From: Paenibacillus sp. H1-7
GTDB taxonomy: Bacteria; Bacillota; Bacilli; Paenibacillales; NBRC-103111
Reading direction: 5' to 3'
DNA length: 64,000 nucleotides
Assembly (NCBI RefSeq): GCF_022354825.1
Contig: NZ_CP031168.1
Location: 6,821,501 to 6,885,500, forward strand
The notes under the pieces were generated by a model. That model was given only the letters and a program-made list of their open reading frames with translations. It was not told the DNA's origin and made no database searches. Position 1 is the first letter of the stretch. Every line of letters starts with the position of its first letter. The position numbers and the translations under genes were made by a program. This document shows, in pieces, positions 51,988 through 59,159 of the stretch.

Positions 51988-53792
51988 GCGCCTGCTCCCT
52001 TCCGAATAAGCCCGCCCTGAGTCAAATCAAGCTCTTGGCCTTCCTGTCTTTCGGCCTCTTGATCCAACAGCTGCTTATGGTACATATCCGCATAAATACC
52101 GTTTTGCCGAAGAAGCTTCTCATGCGATCCTTGCTCTACGATTTCGCCTTCATCCATAACGACGATTTGATCGGCGGACTGAACCGAAGAGATCCGGTGT
52201 CCGATAATAATGGTCGTTCTTTTGTTCATAACCGATTTCAGCCCTTCGAGAATCAAATCCTCGGTTATCGTATCTACGGCCGACAAGCTATCGTCGAAGA
52301 TGAGAATGGAAGGCTTCTTAATAATTGCCCGGGCAATGCTCACACGCTGGCGCTGTCCGCCGGATAACGAAATGCCGCGTTCGCCGAGCGCCGTATCGAA
52401 TTGTTCGGGAAACTCTACAATGTTATCGTACACTTGGGCTACCTTGGACGCTTCGACAACCTGTTCATCGGTATACGGCTTCGGGTCGAAGCCGATGTTG
52501 TCGCGAATGGTCGACGAGAACAGGAACTGATCCTGCGGCACGATGCCAATCTGCCCGCGCAGTGTCTGCAGCGGAATTTCATGGATGTCGTTGCCGTCGA
52601 TGAATACCGTTCCTGCCGGCGGATTGTAAAGGCGGACAAGCAGATGCACAAGCGTGCTCTTCCCGCTGCCCACTCGGCCGACGATGGCGAGGCTGCTTCC
52701 TTTTTTCACTTTGAGCGAAATGTTTTTCAGCGTCGGTCTGTTTGCCTCCGGGTAAGAGAAGGTCAGATTGCGAATTTCGATATCCCCGTCGATGTTATCG
52801 ATGTGCTGCTTGGCCATCTCGTCGTCGACAATATCCGGCTGCGTGTTGAAAATTTCCATCAAGCGAAGCTCCGACGCTCGGCCGCGCTGCATCAAATTGA
52901 CGACCTTGCCCAAGTTCTCAATCGGTCCCATCAGCAAGGATAAATACGTATTGAACGCTACGAATTCTCCCAGCGTAATAATGTTTTTAAGCACCATAAT
53001 GCCCCCGAGCACGACGGATACGAGAAAACTGAATCCGACGATACCGGAGCTCAATGCGCCGAACAGCGAGTTCGAGCGGACGAACCTGCGGTTCATGTCA
53101 ACCGCATGCTGATTATCCTTGGTGAACAGCTCGCGCTCCGCCTTTTCCTGTACAAACGCTTTCACGACACGAATCCCCGCGGTGAATTCCTGCACTCTGC
53201 TGGTCAAATCGGAAATGGCCTTTTGCATATCGACGGATTGCTGCTGAATCCGGCTGTTGAAGCGATAAGCCAAGAGGCTTAACAGCGGCAGCGGGAGCAT
53301 GGTTATCAGCGTCAGCCACGGATTTACCGATGTCACCATCGCGATAACCGAAATGACGATCAGCATGAGCGATTCCATAATATTGAAATATCCTTGCATC
53401 GTCACCTCGCGGACGACGCCAACGTCACTAATCGCGTGGGACATTAAATCGCCGATCCGCTGGTTGTTGAAATATTGCGCGGATAGTCTCTCCCAATGCT
53501 TGAACAAATTCCCTCTTACACGCATTTCGAGCATTCTTGACAGTCGGAACAAATAAATCCGGCTCGTCGAACGGAAAAATGCTATCCCAAGCCCTACCGC
53601 CGTCATCCACAGCGCGAACTTGATCGTTTCCTGGTACGTTAATGCCGAATCCTGCAATTTGTCCGTAAAATCACCAAGCAGCAGCGGTATTAACAGCTGA
53701 AGCAAGCTGGATATGGACAATAATGCAAATCCAATCAAGTAAGGCCAGCGATTCCTCTTAACATGGTTCCAAAAAATATTGTGCCTCTCCAT
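51984..53792 (-). CDS. ABC exporter half, BmrC/YheI-like (degenerate catalytic site)
   Basis: 602 aa; six TM helices and one NBD. Walker A GRVGSGKSTLV, canonical signature LSGGQRQRVSIARA, but Walker B is ILIFDDSLSAVD, with Asp replacing the catalytic Glu, as in BmrC. The heterodimer therefore has one active and one degenerate ATP site. ATG 53792 (GGGGGG 7 nt upstream) preferred over 53819. Substrates unknown; multidrug export expected. Confidence 0.9.
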   Translation of the reverse strand: MERHNIFWNHVKRNRWPYLIGFALLSISSLLQLLIPLLLGDFTDKLQDSALTYQETIKFALWMTAVGLGIAFFRSTSRIYLFRLSRMLEMRVRGNLFKHWERLSAQYFNNQRIGDLMSHAISDVGVVREVTMQGYFNIMESLMLIVISVIAMVTSVNPWLTLITMLPLPLLSLLAYRFNSRIQQQSVDMQKAISDLTSRVQEFTAGIRVVKAFVQEKAERELFTKDNQHAVDMNRRFVRSNSLFGALSSGIVGFSFLVSVVLGGIMVLKNIITLGEFVAFNTYLSLLMGPIENLGKVVNLMQRGRASELRLMEIFNTQPDIVDDEMAKQHIDNIDGDIEIRNLTFSYPEANRPTLKNISLKVKKGSSLAIVGRVGSGKSTLVHLLVRLYNPPAGTVFIDGNDIHEIPLQTLRGQIGIVPQDQFLFSSTIRDNIGFDPKPYTDEQVVEASKVAQVYDNIVEFPEQFDTALGERGISLSGGQRQRVSIARAIIKKPSILIFDDSLSAVDTITEDLILEGLKSVMNKRTTIIIGHRISSVQSADQIVVMDEGEIVEQGSHEKLLRQNGIYADMYHKQLLDQEAERQEGQELDLTQGGLIRKGAGA

Positions 53793-54253: not shown

Positions 54254-54356
54254 TTTTTAACCCCTTTAGCTTTATTTTAAGGTAGAAAATGATACACTAA
54301 TAATATGCCCTTCCGCCTTCATTTCTCAAGAAAAGGAAGCCGGAGCTGGCGCATTT

Positions 54357-54492
54357 GCTTTCCTGCGGAAAGCCAGGTTTATGCTTACGATGCAAGCTTT
54401 CCTCCGGAAAGCTCGGCACATGCTTACGATGCAAGCTTTCCTTCGGAAAGCTCGGCACACGCTTACGATGCAAGCTTTCCTTCGGAAAGCTC
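54357..54492. repeat. Three and a half 39-bp tandem repeats, each with a hairpin
   Basis: Units at 54357-54395, 54396-54434, 54435-54473 and a partial 19-bp unit 54474-54492. Each begins with the palindrome GCTTTCC-nnn-GGAAAGC (three-base loops TGC, TCC, TTC, TTC) and continues with a spacer ending GCTTACGATGCAA. Units 2 and 3 differ at only two positions; unit 1 is the most divergent. The last palindrome (54473-54491) ends 4 nt before the ribosome site AGGAGGAG of the gene at 54511. Apparently non-coding in all frames. Confidence 0.85.
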
Positions 54493-54510
54493 TTAGGAGG
54501 AGACCACAAC

Positions 54511-55491
54511 ATGGACAGCGGAACACACCTTGTAATCGGCTTCGGACTAGCCGGATTGGCTTACATCGATCCCGTAGTTGCAGCGGATCCCAGCGTTTCC
54601 ACCGCCGTTTTAATCGGGACCGTACTCGGATCGCAAGCGCCCGATGCAGATACATTGCTGCGGCTGAAAGACAACGCTACCTACATTAAAAACCATCGCG
54701 GCCGATCGCATTCGCTGCCCGCCCTCATCATATGGACGGCATTAATCACCTTAGGCCTAATGATGGCCTTCGACAACCTGCCATTCTGGCACGTGACCAT
54801 GTGGGTATTTATCGCTGTAGCATTCCATGTGTTCACCGATTTGTTCAATACGTACGGTACGCAGGCGTTCCGGCCATTTTCGGAAAAGTGGGTCTCGTGG
54901 AACATTATTCATATATTCGATCCCGTCATTTTTATATCCCACCTCATTGCTATCTTCATGTGGTCGGTTCATCTGGTTCGTCCGGAGGTTCTCTTTCCCA
55001 TTTTGTACATGATATTGGCAGTGTATTACGTCTGGAGATCGTGGTATCATCATTATCTGGAGTCCAATCTGTTCCAGAAAGATCCCCGCTATAAGCAGGG
55101 CGAACGCTATTATTTGATACCGACCTTTCATTTGTATGTATGGCAAGTGGTGAAGAAGATGCCTAACGGCCATTTTGCCCTTGGGGAATACAGGAACAAC
55201 CGGATCAAGTGGGTCGATGAAGTGTCTTGCGATGCTCATCCGGCCGTGGAAGCTTCCAAAAACAACAAAGATATAGCCGCTTTCCTGTACTTTACCTCTT
55301 TCGCCTGCGCGGATCTTCACTTTCATGAGTGGGGATATGAGGTACGATGGGCCGATGTCCGGTACCGCCACCGGAAGCAGTATCCGTTCGTAGCCGTCAT
55401 GATGCTGGATAAGGAGTTGAACCCCCTCGATTCTTATGTAGGATGGGTCAGCGAGACGCGTCTCGGCAAAAAATTGCGGGTCAATACGTAG
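54511..55491 (+). CDS. YfhP-like membrane-bound metal-dependent hydrolase
   Basis: 326 aa, the length of B. subtilis YfhP (327). N-terminus GTHLVIGFGLAGLAYIDP, PDADTLLRLKDNATYIKNHR then GRSHSLPAL and DLFNTYGTQ give the conserved His/Asp metal ligands of the YdjM/YfhP family; 4-5 membrane helices. The C-terminal 120 residues are soluble. The activity is unknown. ATG at 54511 with AGGAGGAG; 39-bp hairpin repeats fill the 150 bp upstream. Confidence 0.88.
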   Translation: MDSGTHLVIGFGLAGLAYIDPVVAADPSVSTAVLIGTVLGSQAPDADTLLRLKDNATYIKNHRGRSHSLPALIIWTALITLGLMMAFDNLPFWHVTMWVFIAVAFHVFTDLFNTYGTQAFRPFSEKWVSWNIIHIFDPVIFISHLIAIFMWSVHLVRPEVLFPILYMILAVYYVWRSWYHHYLESNLFQKDPRYKQGERYYLIPTFHLYVWQVVKKMPNGHFALGEYRNNRIKWVDEVSCDAHPAVEASKNNKDIAAFLYFTSFACADLHFHEWGYEVRWADVRYRHRKQYPFVAVMMLDKELNPLDSYVGWVSETRLGKKLRVNT

Positions 55492-56067: not shown

Positions 56068-56253
56068 ATGAACAAAGGACTAGCACTCTTATTCGCTATT
56101 GTCGGAACGCTGCTGCTGGCCGGCATCAGCTTCTCTCTCAGCGTCGGAAACGGATGGCTCGCATTGCTGTTCTCCGTATTGTCCATCGGCTTTATCGGAT
56201 TCGGCTTTGTGGTCAAAGCCCGACTCAGACGGCGCAACGGAGAGGGCAATTAA
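56068..56253 (+). CDS. DUF5325-like small membrane protein (YlaF-type)
   Basis: 61 aa, two membrane helices (ALLFAIVGTLLLAGISFSL and WLALLFSVLSIGFIGFGF) and a basic tail ARLRRRNGEGN. Matches the YlaF/DUF5325 pattern in size and topology. AAAGGCGG about 12 nt upstream of ATG 56068. Its stop overlaps the trpS stop on the other strand through shared TTAA. Confidence 0.7.
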   Translation: MNKGLALLFAIVGTLLLAGISFSLSVGNGWLALLFSVLSIGFIGFGFVVKARLRRRNGEGN

Positions 56254-57233
56254 AGAACGAGAAAGCCCATTCTCTCTTTCGTGATCCGCAATATGTTCTC
56301 GGCTTCCGCGGATGCCCTTTCAGCGCCTTGACGCAATATATCATGGAGCTCGCCGGACTTGCGGATGTCCTGATAGCGCTGCTGAATCGGCTCCAACAAG
56401 GCAACGACCTGCTCGGCCAATTCTTTTTTGAACGGACCGTATCCTTGTCCTTCATACTGGGCTTCGATGTCCGCTATGGACTTATTCGAGCATTGCGCGT
56501 AAATGCTGATCAAATTGCTGACCTCCGGCTTGTTCTGAGGGTCAAATTTCACTTCACGGCACGAGTCGGTTACGGCTCGGCTTATTTTTTTGCGGATGAC
56601 GTCCGGCGCATCCAGCATGGCGATGAAGCTGCCTTGGTTGGCGCTGCTTTTGCTCATTTTCTTCGATGCGTCGTCGAGCGACATTATGCGCGCTCCGACT
56701 TGCGGAATGTACGGCTCCGGAATCGTGAATGTATCGCCATATCTTTGGTTGAACCGCTGCGCCAAATCGCGTGTCAGCTCTAGATGCTGCTTCTGATCGT
56801 CGCCTACCGGTACGAGGTCCGCATTATATAGCAAAATATCGGCGGCCATCAGAGACGGGTATGTGAACAATCCGGCGCCTACGGATTCCTTGCCCGCCGC
56901 TTTGTCCTTGAACTGCGTCATCCGCTCCAGCTCGCCCATATAGGTCAGCGTCGTCAACAACCATCCGAGCTCCGCATGCTGGCGCACATGGGATTGCAGG
57001 AATACCGTTGCCTTGGACGGGTCGATCCCCGCCGCGATATACAGCGCGGCTACCGCCTCGCTCTGCTCGCGCAGCGCGGCCGGCTCCTGCGGCACGGTGA
57101 TGGCGTGCAAATCGACCGCCATGAAGTAGCAGTCGTGCGTATGCTGCAAAGCCACGTAGTTTTTCAGCGCTCCGATGTAGTTGCCCAATGTCAATTGTCC
57201 GCTCGGCTGCATGCCGGATAATACTCTTTTCAT
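56250..57233 (-). CDS. trpS: Tryptophanyl-tRNA synthetase
   Basis: 327 aa, class I synthetase. TLGNYIGAL (HIGH equivalent, about 15-23), the KKMSKSSAN loop (about 191-199) and the SVGAGLFTYP/MAADILLY motifs are diagnostic. Charges tRNA-Trp. AAGGAGGAAC upstream of ATG 57233. Expression is controlled by the Trp T-box riboswitch in its 300-600 nt leader. Convergent with DUF5325. Confidence 0.96.
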   Translation of the reverse strand: MKRVLSGMQPSGQLTLGNYIGALKNYVALQHTHDCYFMAVDLHAITVPQEPAALREQSEAVAALYIAAGIDPSKATVFLQSHVRQHAELGWLLTTLTYMGELERMTQFKDKAAGKESVGAGLFTYPSLMAADILLYNADLVPVGDDQKQHLELTRDLAQRFNQRYGDTFTIPEPYIPQVGARIMSLDDASKKMSKSSANQGSFIAMLDAPDVIRKKISRAVTDSCREVKFDPQNKPEVSNLISIYAQCSNKSIADIEAQYEGQGYGPFKKELAEQVVALLEPIQQRYQDIRKSGELHDILRQGAERASAEAENILRITKERMGFLVL

Positions 57234-57375
57234 TTGATGTTCCTCCTTGATTTTCTTTATAATGTTGTTTTATGGGTGGTGTTCCGATTTTGCATGGGAC
57301 GATATCCCGCTTCACCCGCTTGTGGAATGCACAGCGCAGCGGCAGCCATTTCACCTTCACACTACTACTCCCACC

Positions 57376-57526
57376 AAAATAACGAGCGTCAGGGAGTATG
57401 TAAAGATACCGGAGAGCTTACGATCCGCCTTTTGAAGCTGTGTTCTCACCACGGGAATCGGATAAATAGAACACGGCTTCAACAGCGGACGGAGGTACTT
57501 TACTACTCCCGAAGCCCCGTTATTTT
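57376..57526. repeat. Long imperfect inverted repeat in the trpS leader
   Basis: Left arm 57376-57446 and right arm 57468-57526 are imperfect reverse complements: AAAATAACGAGCGTCAGGGA on the left matches the complement AAAATAACGGGGCTTCGGGA on the right, continuing through GTAAAG-TACC and GAAGC-GTGTTCT at the inner end, with a roughly 12-nt bulge in the left arm and a 21-nt loop. It lies between the T-box terminator and the trpS start codon, and is transcribed only on readthrough. MITE-like or a leader hairpin. Confidence 0.7.
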
Positions 57527-57543
57527 ACATACTCCTCAACACA

Positions 57544-57850
57544 AAAAGGCCCTCCGCCGCAAGGGACGAAGGACCGTGGTGCCACCCTATTTTGCTTACA
57601 TTCGCAGGGACAACAACGCCCAGCACTTATAAGCCTTAAGCTCTTGTAACGGAGAGTATCCGGACCAGCCTTTGATTATGATGCAACAACACCAGGCAAG
57701 AAGCCTGTCCGCATCATTTCGTTCAGCCGTCAGCTCCAGGACCCATTCAACGCCACTGCCTACCGGTTCACAGCACCCACCGGCTCTCTGAAAGGCTCAT
57801 TGCCGCCTACTTGCTCCTGTCATTGCTTATTTCTATCATTAGGTTCTGAT
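57544..57850 (-). promoter_or_regulatory. T-box riboswitch of trpS (Trp specifier)
   Basis: On the minus strand: the T-box AGGGTGGCACCACGGTCC (57571-57588), a stem I with the usual AGTAGG and AGAGAGCCGG-GGTGGCTG-like elements upstream, and the specifier loop GAATGGGTCC with TGG (57743-57745), the tryptophan codon. The terminator GGTCCTTCGTCC / GGCGGAGGGCC with TTTTTG (57544-57575) competes with the T-box antiterminator. Uncharged tRNA-Trp would stabilise antitermination and raise trpS expression. Confidence 0.9.
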
Positions 57851-57861
57851 TGCTTCTTGTT

Positions 57862-57891
57862 ATCATATACATAACATCCACACCATGTCAA
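57862..57891 (-). promoter_or_regulatory. trpS promoter (T-box transcript)
   Basis: Minus strand -35 TTGACA (57886-57891), 18-bp spacer, -10 TATGAT (57862-57867), just ahead of stem I of the T-box. Confidence 0.65.
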
Positions 57892-57982
57892 TCCTTCCCC
57901 AACGGGCAATTTTTTATCCCGATCCCCTTCATATTTTGTTATTTGCCTGTCCTATATACCGTACGTCCCGCATATTATATAA

Positions 57983-57997
57983 TAATAATATTTACGA
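57983..57997 (+). promoter_or_regulatory. Zur-like box in front of the YcgR-type permease
   Basis: TAATAATATTTACGA matches 11 of 14 conserved positions of the B. subtilis Zur box TCGTAAT-N-ATTACGA; the right half TTTACGA is nearly perfect. It overlaps the -10-like TATAAT (57978-57983), 23 nt upstream of the start codon. A Fur/PerR/Mn-type box cannot be excluded. Confidence 0.4.
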
Positions 57998-58019
57998 ATT
58001 AGAAAGGGAGAAATGTCCA

Positions 58020-59159
58020 ATGCGGCCAATGATCATGCGTTGGAGTACGAATGTGCTCACTTTAGCCTGCCTTATCATGCTGATTCTTATTTTTACCCAA
58101 AAGCATCCGATCGATTGGAGCTTTCTCCAGAGCAACGACATGCAGAACTTCAAAACGTTGTTCCTGAGCATCATTCTGGAGGCGTTCCCCTTCGTACTGC
58201 TTGGCGTACTCGTTTCGGCCCTGCTGCAAATGTTCGTCTCCGAGCAAACGATCCGCCGGCTTGTCCCGAAAAACCCGGTGCTGGGCATTCTGTTCGCTTG
58301 CGTTGTTGGGATTATTTTTCCGCTGTGCGAGTGCGGGATGATTCCTGTCATTCGCCGTTTGATGAAAAAAGGCATGCCCGTATATGTCGCCATCGTATTC
58401 ATCTTGGTCGGCCCTATCATTAACCCGGTCGTCTATGCCTCCACCTTCATGGCGTTCCGAAGCCGCCCCGAGATTGCTTACTCCCGCATGGGACTGGCAT
58501 TCATCGTGGCCTTGGCGATCGGCCTGATTGTTTACAAATTTGTCCGGTCGAATCCGCTTCGCGGCACTACTGCTTCGGCAGCGATACATAACCATCATGC
58601 ACATGAGAACAGCCATCATCACGATCACGATCATTATCACGCGCACCACCATGCGAGCCATGACCATCATGCTCATGAACATCACAATACACATGAGCAT
58701 CACCACCATGATCACGGCAGCCATACCCATGCTGGACATACCGGGGTTACAGGCAAGCTGTTCGGCATTCTCGGACACGCGTCCGATGAGTTTTTCGAAA
58801 TGGGCAAATATTTGATGTTCGGAGCCATGCTGACCGCGGCAATACAGACGGTCGTTTCGAGAGAAAGCCTCGTTTCCATCGGGCAGGGAGACGTTCAATC
58901 CCATCTGTTCATGATGGCTTTTGCTTTTGTCCTGTCGCTCTGCTCCACCTCGGACGCGTTCGTGGCCTCCTCCTTCAATACGACGTTCTCGACAGGCTCG
59001 CTGCTGACGTTTCTCGTCTTCGGGCCGATGCTCGATATCAAAAGCCTGCTGATGATGCTGTCCGCCTTTAAAGCCCGCTTCGTCATAGCGTTATCCGCAT
59101 TAATTGTTGTAGTCGTATTGGTTTGCTCACTTGTGTTCGAGCGAATCTTCTTCACCTGA
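58020..59159 (+). CDS. YcgR/DUF318-family permease with a histidine-rich loop
   Basis: 379 aa, about 8 helices. The family motifs FPLCECGMIPVIRRL (CECG), GPIINPVV and LSLCSTSDAFVASSF (CSTSDAF) are present. Between TM4 and TM5 (about residues 195-245 by my start) lies a roughly 50-residue stretch with more than half His (HHHDHDHYHAHHHASHDHHA and more), a likely Zn/Ni/Cu-binding loop, probably cytoplasmic because of preceding basic residues. ATG 58020 with AAAGGGAG. Forms an operon with the TIGR03943-type gene (19 bp). Transport of a metal or metal-linked compound is inference. Confidence 0.85.
   Translation: MRPMIMRWSTNVLTLACLIMLILIFTQKHPIDWSFLQSNDMQNFKTLFLSIILEAFPFVLLGVLVSALLQMFVSEQTIRRLVPKNPVLGILFACVVGIIFPLCECGMIPVIRRLMKKGMPVYVAIVFILVGPIINPVVYASTFMAFRSRPEIAYSRMGLAFIVALAIGLIVYKFVRSNPLRGTTASAAIHNHHAHENSHHHDHDHYHAHHHASHDHHAHEHHNTHEHHHHDHGSHTHAGHTGVTGKLFGILGHASDEFFEMGKYLMFGAMLTAAIQTVVSRESLVSIGQGDVQSHLFMMAFAFVLSLCSTSDAFVASSFNTTFSTGSLLTFLVFGPMLDIKSLLMMLSAFKARFVIALSALIVVVVLVCSLVFERIFFT

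Follow-up and report, generated by a model that had tools for sequence, protein, structure and literature searches.

The window analysed here is a stretch of 64,000 nucleotides from Paenibacillus sp. H1-7 (contig NZ_CP031168.1, positions 6,821,501 to 6,885,500), in which trpS is encoded on the minus strand behind a T-box leader, and a palindromic element of 151 bp adjoins the T-box terminator on the side of the gene (Table 1). The first-pass annotation had described an inverted repeat with arms at 57376-57446 and 57468-57526, and the predicted fold reproduces these arms to the base. This pairing is the predicted optimum on the plus strand for 57370-57540, and the minus strand yields the same structure except for one or two extra pairs. 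The fold of 57340-57560 reaches -70.2 kcal/mol against a mean of -48.2 (sd 4.2) for shuffled sequences (z -5.2), and that of 57390-57539 gives a z of -8.3; in the optimum of the former interval 57393-57404 pairs with the distal repeat at 57524-57535 as the outer pairing. Two traits expected of a MITE are present, namely terminal inverted repeats (57376-57384 with 57518-57526) and the lack of a conserved gene, the element being crossed by mechanically called ORFs alone.

Table 1. Features of the trpS leader region and subdivisions of the palindromic element (window coordinates)
Feature	Position	Strand	Remarks
trpS (name from the first-pass annotation)	56250..57233	-	327 aa; matches in 104/104 family genomes
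Whole palindromic element	57376..57526	+ (family orientation; antisense to trpS)	pairs 57376:57526 to 57446:57468
Outer stem 5' arm	57376..57390	+	AAAATAACG plus 2+2 more pairs; partner 57511-57526
Dispersed-family conserved core	57392..57512	+	model match 1-119 of 119; R2 match at 57392-57511
Inner P1 5' arm	57392..57410	+	partner 57494-57510; P1 differs among copies and covaries
5' junction box	57411..57423	+	GGAGAGCTTACGA here; GGAGAGTTTACGTG or GGAGAAGCGATAGCGT in the family
P2 (TCCGC) and P3 5' arms	57424..57446	+	predicted fold; covariation
Apical loop	57447..57467	+	includes near-invariant ACC at 57448-57450
P3 3' arm, TTCAACAGCGG, CGGA box	57468..57493	+	TTCAACAGCGG invariant across the 63-row alignment, for most rows of which the collecting pattern itself contains TTCAACAGCGG
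Extra repeat TTTACATACTCC	57524..57535	+	alternative outer pairing with 57393-57404
T-box terminator hairpin	57548..57575	-	stem plus T run; element adjoins
T-box leader RF00230	57559..57832	-	105.7 bits

The leader is unusually long, as previously proposed. About 310 nt separate the terminator from the ATG, close to the earlier figure of about 300 nt, and the distance from the T-box motif to the start is 355 nt here versus a median of 101 nt in relatives (93 leaders taken, motif found in 88, the set including the element-bearing G003 and G008). The end of the element lies 142 nt from the trpS ATG; by eye, this interval (57234-57375) is some 80-100 nt longer than in relatives devoid of the repeat. 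It is plausible that the repeat is transcribed only upon T-box read-through. A weak promoter-like match (9 of 12) is found inside the repeat on the trpS strand (57404-57376), three such matches being found versus 1.1 expected in shuffled sequences, and it is absent, as judged by eye, in G003 and G008. The repeat falls outside the match to RF00230, which lies directly upstream on the trpS strand. No Rfam model matched over the element, either at gathering score in the 64-kb window or, with E values up to 5 admitted, in three loci that bear the element and were searched with 4227 models; a second riboswitch or another known RNA was ruled out on these grounds.

A dispersed family with one conserved, covarying fold

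Two models of the element were used. R1 served for the scans of the own genome (G000), the family, the class, the relative G009 and the trpS leaders outside the genus; it includes the trpS copies of G000 and G008, whose R1 scores therefore hold by construction. R2 was built from 60 copies, none of them linked to trpS, and provides a fair test of membership. R2 recognised the trpS copy of the own genome with 66.3 bits (E 2.1e-18; 83.7 bits with R1, of which this copy is part), as well as those of G008 (80.8 bits), G003 (74.5 bits) and G033 (48.9 bits). The search for further copies in the genome, which had been suggested along with the MITE reading, returned 61 rows, five of them the opposite strand of listed places, and thus at least 56 distinct places; this is a lower bound because the best 150 of 2189 first-look candidates were scored. 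A DNA search of the same genome found three core copies besides that at trpS, and one of these, used as query, found matches in 13 of 13 genomes of the genus, its own included. With 35 candidates scored per genome, copies were detected in 81 of the 104 family genomes and in 20 of 22 genera, many genomes of genus g17 being without a match; 107 rows matched in G009. Across the class, 18 of 200 genomes matched: the own genome, 16 from another family belonging to this order and a weaker case elsewhere (best E 1.1e-5). When named genomes were scanned with a sequence pattern, at least 115 stretches were retrieved, and among the matches listed 104 were from Paenibacillus, one from Cohnella and ten from unrelated taxa. 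These ten are taken as chance; they were excluded from the arm-fit and gene-placement counts, and were not removed by name from the junction-box, G-U/A-C, type A upstream-frame, matching-flank, type C duplication, recent-copy and empty-site comparisons reported below. The trpS repeat is therefore one copy of a large, dispersed and strongly folded Paenibacillus-type family. Two pairs of near-identical copies, L074 and L181 at two places of Paenibacillus sp. 32352 (98.6% over 211 bp) and L017 and L041 at two places of G008 (99.0% over 193 bp), are read as recent copies. A weak model match elsewhere in the window (53104-53312; R2 E 0.012) was put down to chance because the fold there is ordinary (z -0.3).

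The aligned copies have in common P2, the TTTGAA/TTCAACAGCGG motifs (both part of the collecting pattern), the ACC loop and the 5' junction box. P1 and most of P3, by contrast, vary among copies yet stay paired, 96.9% of the cells being paired. Eight or nine copies that carry long inserts were deliberately kept out of the alignments (A5 and A6); row L085 of A5 spans only part of the element and was left out of A6 and R2. The first alignment contains 162 double-change cells versus 43 in shuffles, and the pairs changed on both sides (9 versus 7.8 in shuffles; 107 of 500) are not in excess. When P1 was included, in another alignment that comprises 60 copies and overlaps the first, the double-change cells amount to 228 versus 91 in shuffles; each of the 11 P1 pairs shows changes on both sides, and the 13 both-side-varying pairs are within the range of the shuffles (240 of 500). 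The two arms fit each other better within a copy than between copies (median score 35.5 versus 18), 37 of 55 non-redundant copies lying above the 95th percentile of mixed arm pairs and 18 not. The many copies are thus shown to form one family, with a single conserved fold whose stems covary. As read from the aligned copies, the junction box is able to hold a small side hairpin of variable length, which could make the fold a three-way junction, a shape that the folding tool does not draw. In L070, L160, L079 and L146 we also observed, within the junction, a second small inserted repeat of approximately AGCTTATGCTTCCGAAGTCGTTTTC that carries a hairpin; a similar repeat occurs in the long trpS leader of G103 (L313).

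Copies behind trpS and at other genes

The trpS leaders could be compared in 103 of the 104 family genomes, the contig border being too near in G019. A complete copy stands behind the T-box terminator in four of them, three among the 13 leaders of the genus (G000, G003 and G008) and one among the 90 outside it (G033; 42 bits with R1). To these a cut copy in G006 is added, whose contig starts inside the element: 24 bases are left, 22 of which match the family (score 38 versus at most 25 in 200 shuffles), and R2 matches it over positions 1-49, cut at the contig end, with an E of 0.0029. The presence of the copy thus varies among relatives, some of which have a trpS leader devoid of the repeat. 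With four complete copies and a cut one in 103 leaders the element is not a general part of trpS T-box leaders, nor is the second post-transcriptional control of trpS that had been offered as an alternative to insertion borne out. Other long trpS leaders (e.g. those of G103 and G031) are without a copy.

All five copies at trpS are antisense to the gene, an orientation opposing the usual sense bias of the family described below. In a tree of trpS coding DNA from 13 genomes, G003 and G008 are sisters (100/100); G006 groups with G001, G004 and G010 (87/89), and G000 with G002, G011, G007 and G009 (83/91, drawn open), the leaders of these three and four companions lacking the copy. G000, G003/G008 and G006 accordingly stand apart, each beside genomes without the repeat, and copies in trpS leaders are present in about four lineages. 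Because the stems of the trpS copies differ, the pattern would favour several gains at one slot over an old insertion with several losses, although an ancestral insertion in the genus that was lost several times is possible. On a rough estimate, random landing would be expected to give less agreement in slot and orientation than is seen among the four lineages.

Between G008 and G003 the trpS element is identical at 151 of 161 positions and the T-box stretch at 282 of 299 (8 gap columns), as compared with 132 of 167 in the downstream spacer (48 gap columns), 36 of 44 in the upstream spacer (20 gap columns) and 216 of 327 third codon positions. This is more constraint than a passive insert should show. 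Nonetheless, where copies were compared together with long flanks that match (34 rows; the flanks largely coding, gaps uncounted, some rows paralogous and some repeated), the element was less similar than its flanks in five and about equally or more similar in the rest; copies elsewhere are therefore about as conserved as their surroundings, and conservation is not special to trpS.

A simple and crude ORF caller assigned a gene context to 104 of 127 copies whose flanks are distinct, the others lying within an ORF (9), more than 600 nt from a gene (11) or at the edges of their loci (3). Tandem regions hold 50 sense and 14 antisense copies (binomial p 7e-6), and convergent gene pairs outnumber divergent ones 32:8; in the own genome alone the figures are 20 tandem sense, 8 tandem antisense, 10 convergent and 3 divergent, with nine copies inside ORFs. 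The family thus prefers the 3' sides of genes. T-boxes are not a regular neighbour: when 3-kb loci around 49 other own-genome copies and ten from G009 were searched, no further one reached the Rfam threshold, and a general association of the element with T-boxes was discarded, the trpS T-box being the only one in 50 own-genome and ten G009 loci. A companion protein was likewise considered and dropped; a frame ending in YxGVHGYEYRLxDRL precedes some type A copies, but other type A copies follow unrelated genes. At L041, L073, L077, L133 and L163, which differ in their contexts, this repeated upstream frame includes a segment rich in cysteine and terminates in a sequence like EYYxGVHGYEYRLxDRL.

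One subfamily, type C, was picked by a loose pattern of ends like TGTYGAGAAACC, which form its terminal inverted repeats. Direct repeats of 13 to 37 bp bracket these copies, their distance from the element being nearly constant: flank repeats scoring 11 or more were found in 22 of 32 copies, some of which represent a single site shared by two species, and in 1 of 32 when the right flank was reversed. Of these 22 repeats, 16 have a folding energy of -4.5 kcal/mol or lower and six fall short of it. In L155, L117, L144 and L246 (the last two scoring below 11) the two flank repeats differ from each other with the stem kept. L181, L074, L071, L176, L175 and further type C copies were seen to be bracketed by terminator-like direct duplications of variable length, most of them hairpin-forming. 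We read the flanking repeats as a terminator hairpin that would be duplicated upon insertion, and the duplicated, mostly hairpin-forming flanks suggest insertion at terminators; as T runs are visible by eye in some flanks only (L181, L074), the label of terminator is in part inferred. For the L135 copy an empty site between two genes was found.

Origin of the trpS copy and its possible roles

Taken together, the trpS repeat probably represents a resident member of a mobile palindromic family that is dispersed in two families of one order, forming a stable stem in the trpS leader whose likeliest effect is passive. That it belongs to a dispersed family with no Rfam match at the loci searched makes an inserted mobile element likelier than a purpose-built second switch. 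The proposal of a MITE-type insertion is therefore supported as to the kind of event, given the many places in the own genome, the relatives whose leaders lack the repeat and the duplications flanking type C copies. For a MITE in the strict sense the trpS copy is at most a candidate, as its flanks show no duplicated target and a partner transposase did not turn up; the trpS copies do not belong to the duplication-bearing subfamily. Matches to the Y1 transposase family PF01797 were absent from five of six genomes searched, G000 included, and present in one, which, together with the different size, ruled out a RAYT-driven REP. In G009 no autonomous copy or IS with type C ends was recognised at the sites read for 11 of 12 end-like stretches among the matches listed, the 11 sites being truncated copies or unrelated; the end pattern matched 162 times there, versus 92 for its reversed control.

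If terminator hairpins are the target of the family, as the type C flanks suggest, that of the trpS T-box would be a favoured landing site, beside which a structure-seeking mobile element probably inserted. The copy would then persist as a stable stem whenever the T-box reads through, most likely as a passive double-stranded block 142 nt upstream of the start, the T-box remaining the control. Such a block could perhaps be an RNase III site or a protector of the 5' end, and a role of the element in mRNA processing is possible; a second switch specific for tRNA or tryptophan is not proposed. Insertion leaves unexplained the conservation between G003 and G008 and the common antisense orientation. 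It is tempting, if tentative, to extend this reading to an undescribed, order-wide class of structured mobile elements, whose integration would be directed by nucleic-acid structure to intrinsic terminator hairpins, duplicating the whole hairpin whatever its length and leaving an RNA-like three-helix module that the host would retain by selection at the 3' ends of genes and, on repeated occasions, behind the T-box terminator of trpS. Were the hairpin duplication to hold, the integration step would be guided by the shape of DNA or RNA, and many copies in 3' regions and some in leaders would represent ready-made RNA processing sites. A puzzle at a single locus thus becomes one about a family abundant in two families of one order, for which the trpS leader offers a direct place to test exaptation.

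A functional structured RNA is another candidate, namely a 3'-UTR module to which a protein would bind by way of the conserved loop and junction, with mobility being secondary. In its favour, besides the sense bias behind genes, G-U exceed A-C mismatches on the family strand in both P1 (158:109) and P3 (40:22), related copies being counted separately and not independent. Moreover, in 17 pairs of copies with matching flanks, 126 pairs changed on both sides versus 50 expected by independence at equal rates for all sites. Divergence was 0.21 in the stems versus 0.32 outside them. However, 71 of the 126 double changes are still paired and 55 are not, single changes break a pair (143) more often than they keep it (75), the trpS copies are antisense and many g17 genomes have no match, all of which renders this explanation doubtful.

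More specifically for trpS, the hairpin could have been exapted and now be selected for the expression of the gene, for instance through an RNase III cut setting leader stability after T-box read-through. The recurrent presence of the copy and its T-box-like conservation in two sister species make such a second control possible, as does the same slot and antisense orientation in G000, G003/G008, the cut copy of G006 and the distant G033. Yet no copy was found in 98 of 103 leaders, copies elsewhere are equally conserved with their matching flanks, an insertion hot spot would also account for the recurrence, and the element and the Shine-Dalgarno region are unpaired with each other in the predicted fold of the leader; we consider exaptation rather unlikely. 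A chance palindrome or duplication confined to the trpS leader, for which it could be argued that the outer arm is not itself a genomic repeat (9 one-mismatch matches versus 8 for a reversed control pattern), is refuted by the match to R2, free of trpS-linked copies, the dispersed core homologues and the z values of -5 to -8, and can be virtually dismissed.

Group IIC introns sit behind terminator hairpins. The family described here differs from them in not being intron-sized, in its type C flanking duplications and in that no RVT_1 match was found in G000, G009 and G003, three of six genomes searched (matches being present in G011, G008 and G005); a resident reverse transcriptase was discarded for the same reason. 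Comparable MITE-like or stem-loop families include ERIC, YPAL, NEMIS, RUP, bcr1 and REP (PMC3733652, PMC2267715), and of the bcr1-bcr18 repeats of B. cereus 84/165 and 62/155 are reported within transcripts (PMC3446304). Like the present family, ERIC/YPAL, NEMIS, RUP and bcr1 are short dispersed intergenic palindromes able to fold in transcripts beside genes (PMC3733652, PMC2267715). At the level of description, the present family stands apart in its three-part fold with a conserved junction and loop and in its occurrence in two families of one order. One subfamily duplicating mostly hairpin-forming flanks is a further difference from ERIC-like repeats. REP elements share the palindromic nature and the location mostly downstream of genes, but are described there as 20-40 bp long with a GTAG or CGTC tag (PMC3733652), unlike the 151 bp of the trpS element. 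A search by title and abstract, with subscription journals mostly outside it, found no paper on the family.

Two further observations concern the surroundings of the element in the window. A short tandem repeat at 54355-54655 encodes repeated peptides (e.g. MLTMQAFLRKARH) in several ORF frames, and a very histidine-rich stretch (58560-58740) lies within a long ORF (57885-59159) whose putative product is membrane-permease-like in appearance.
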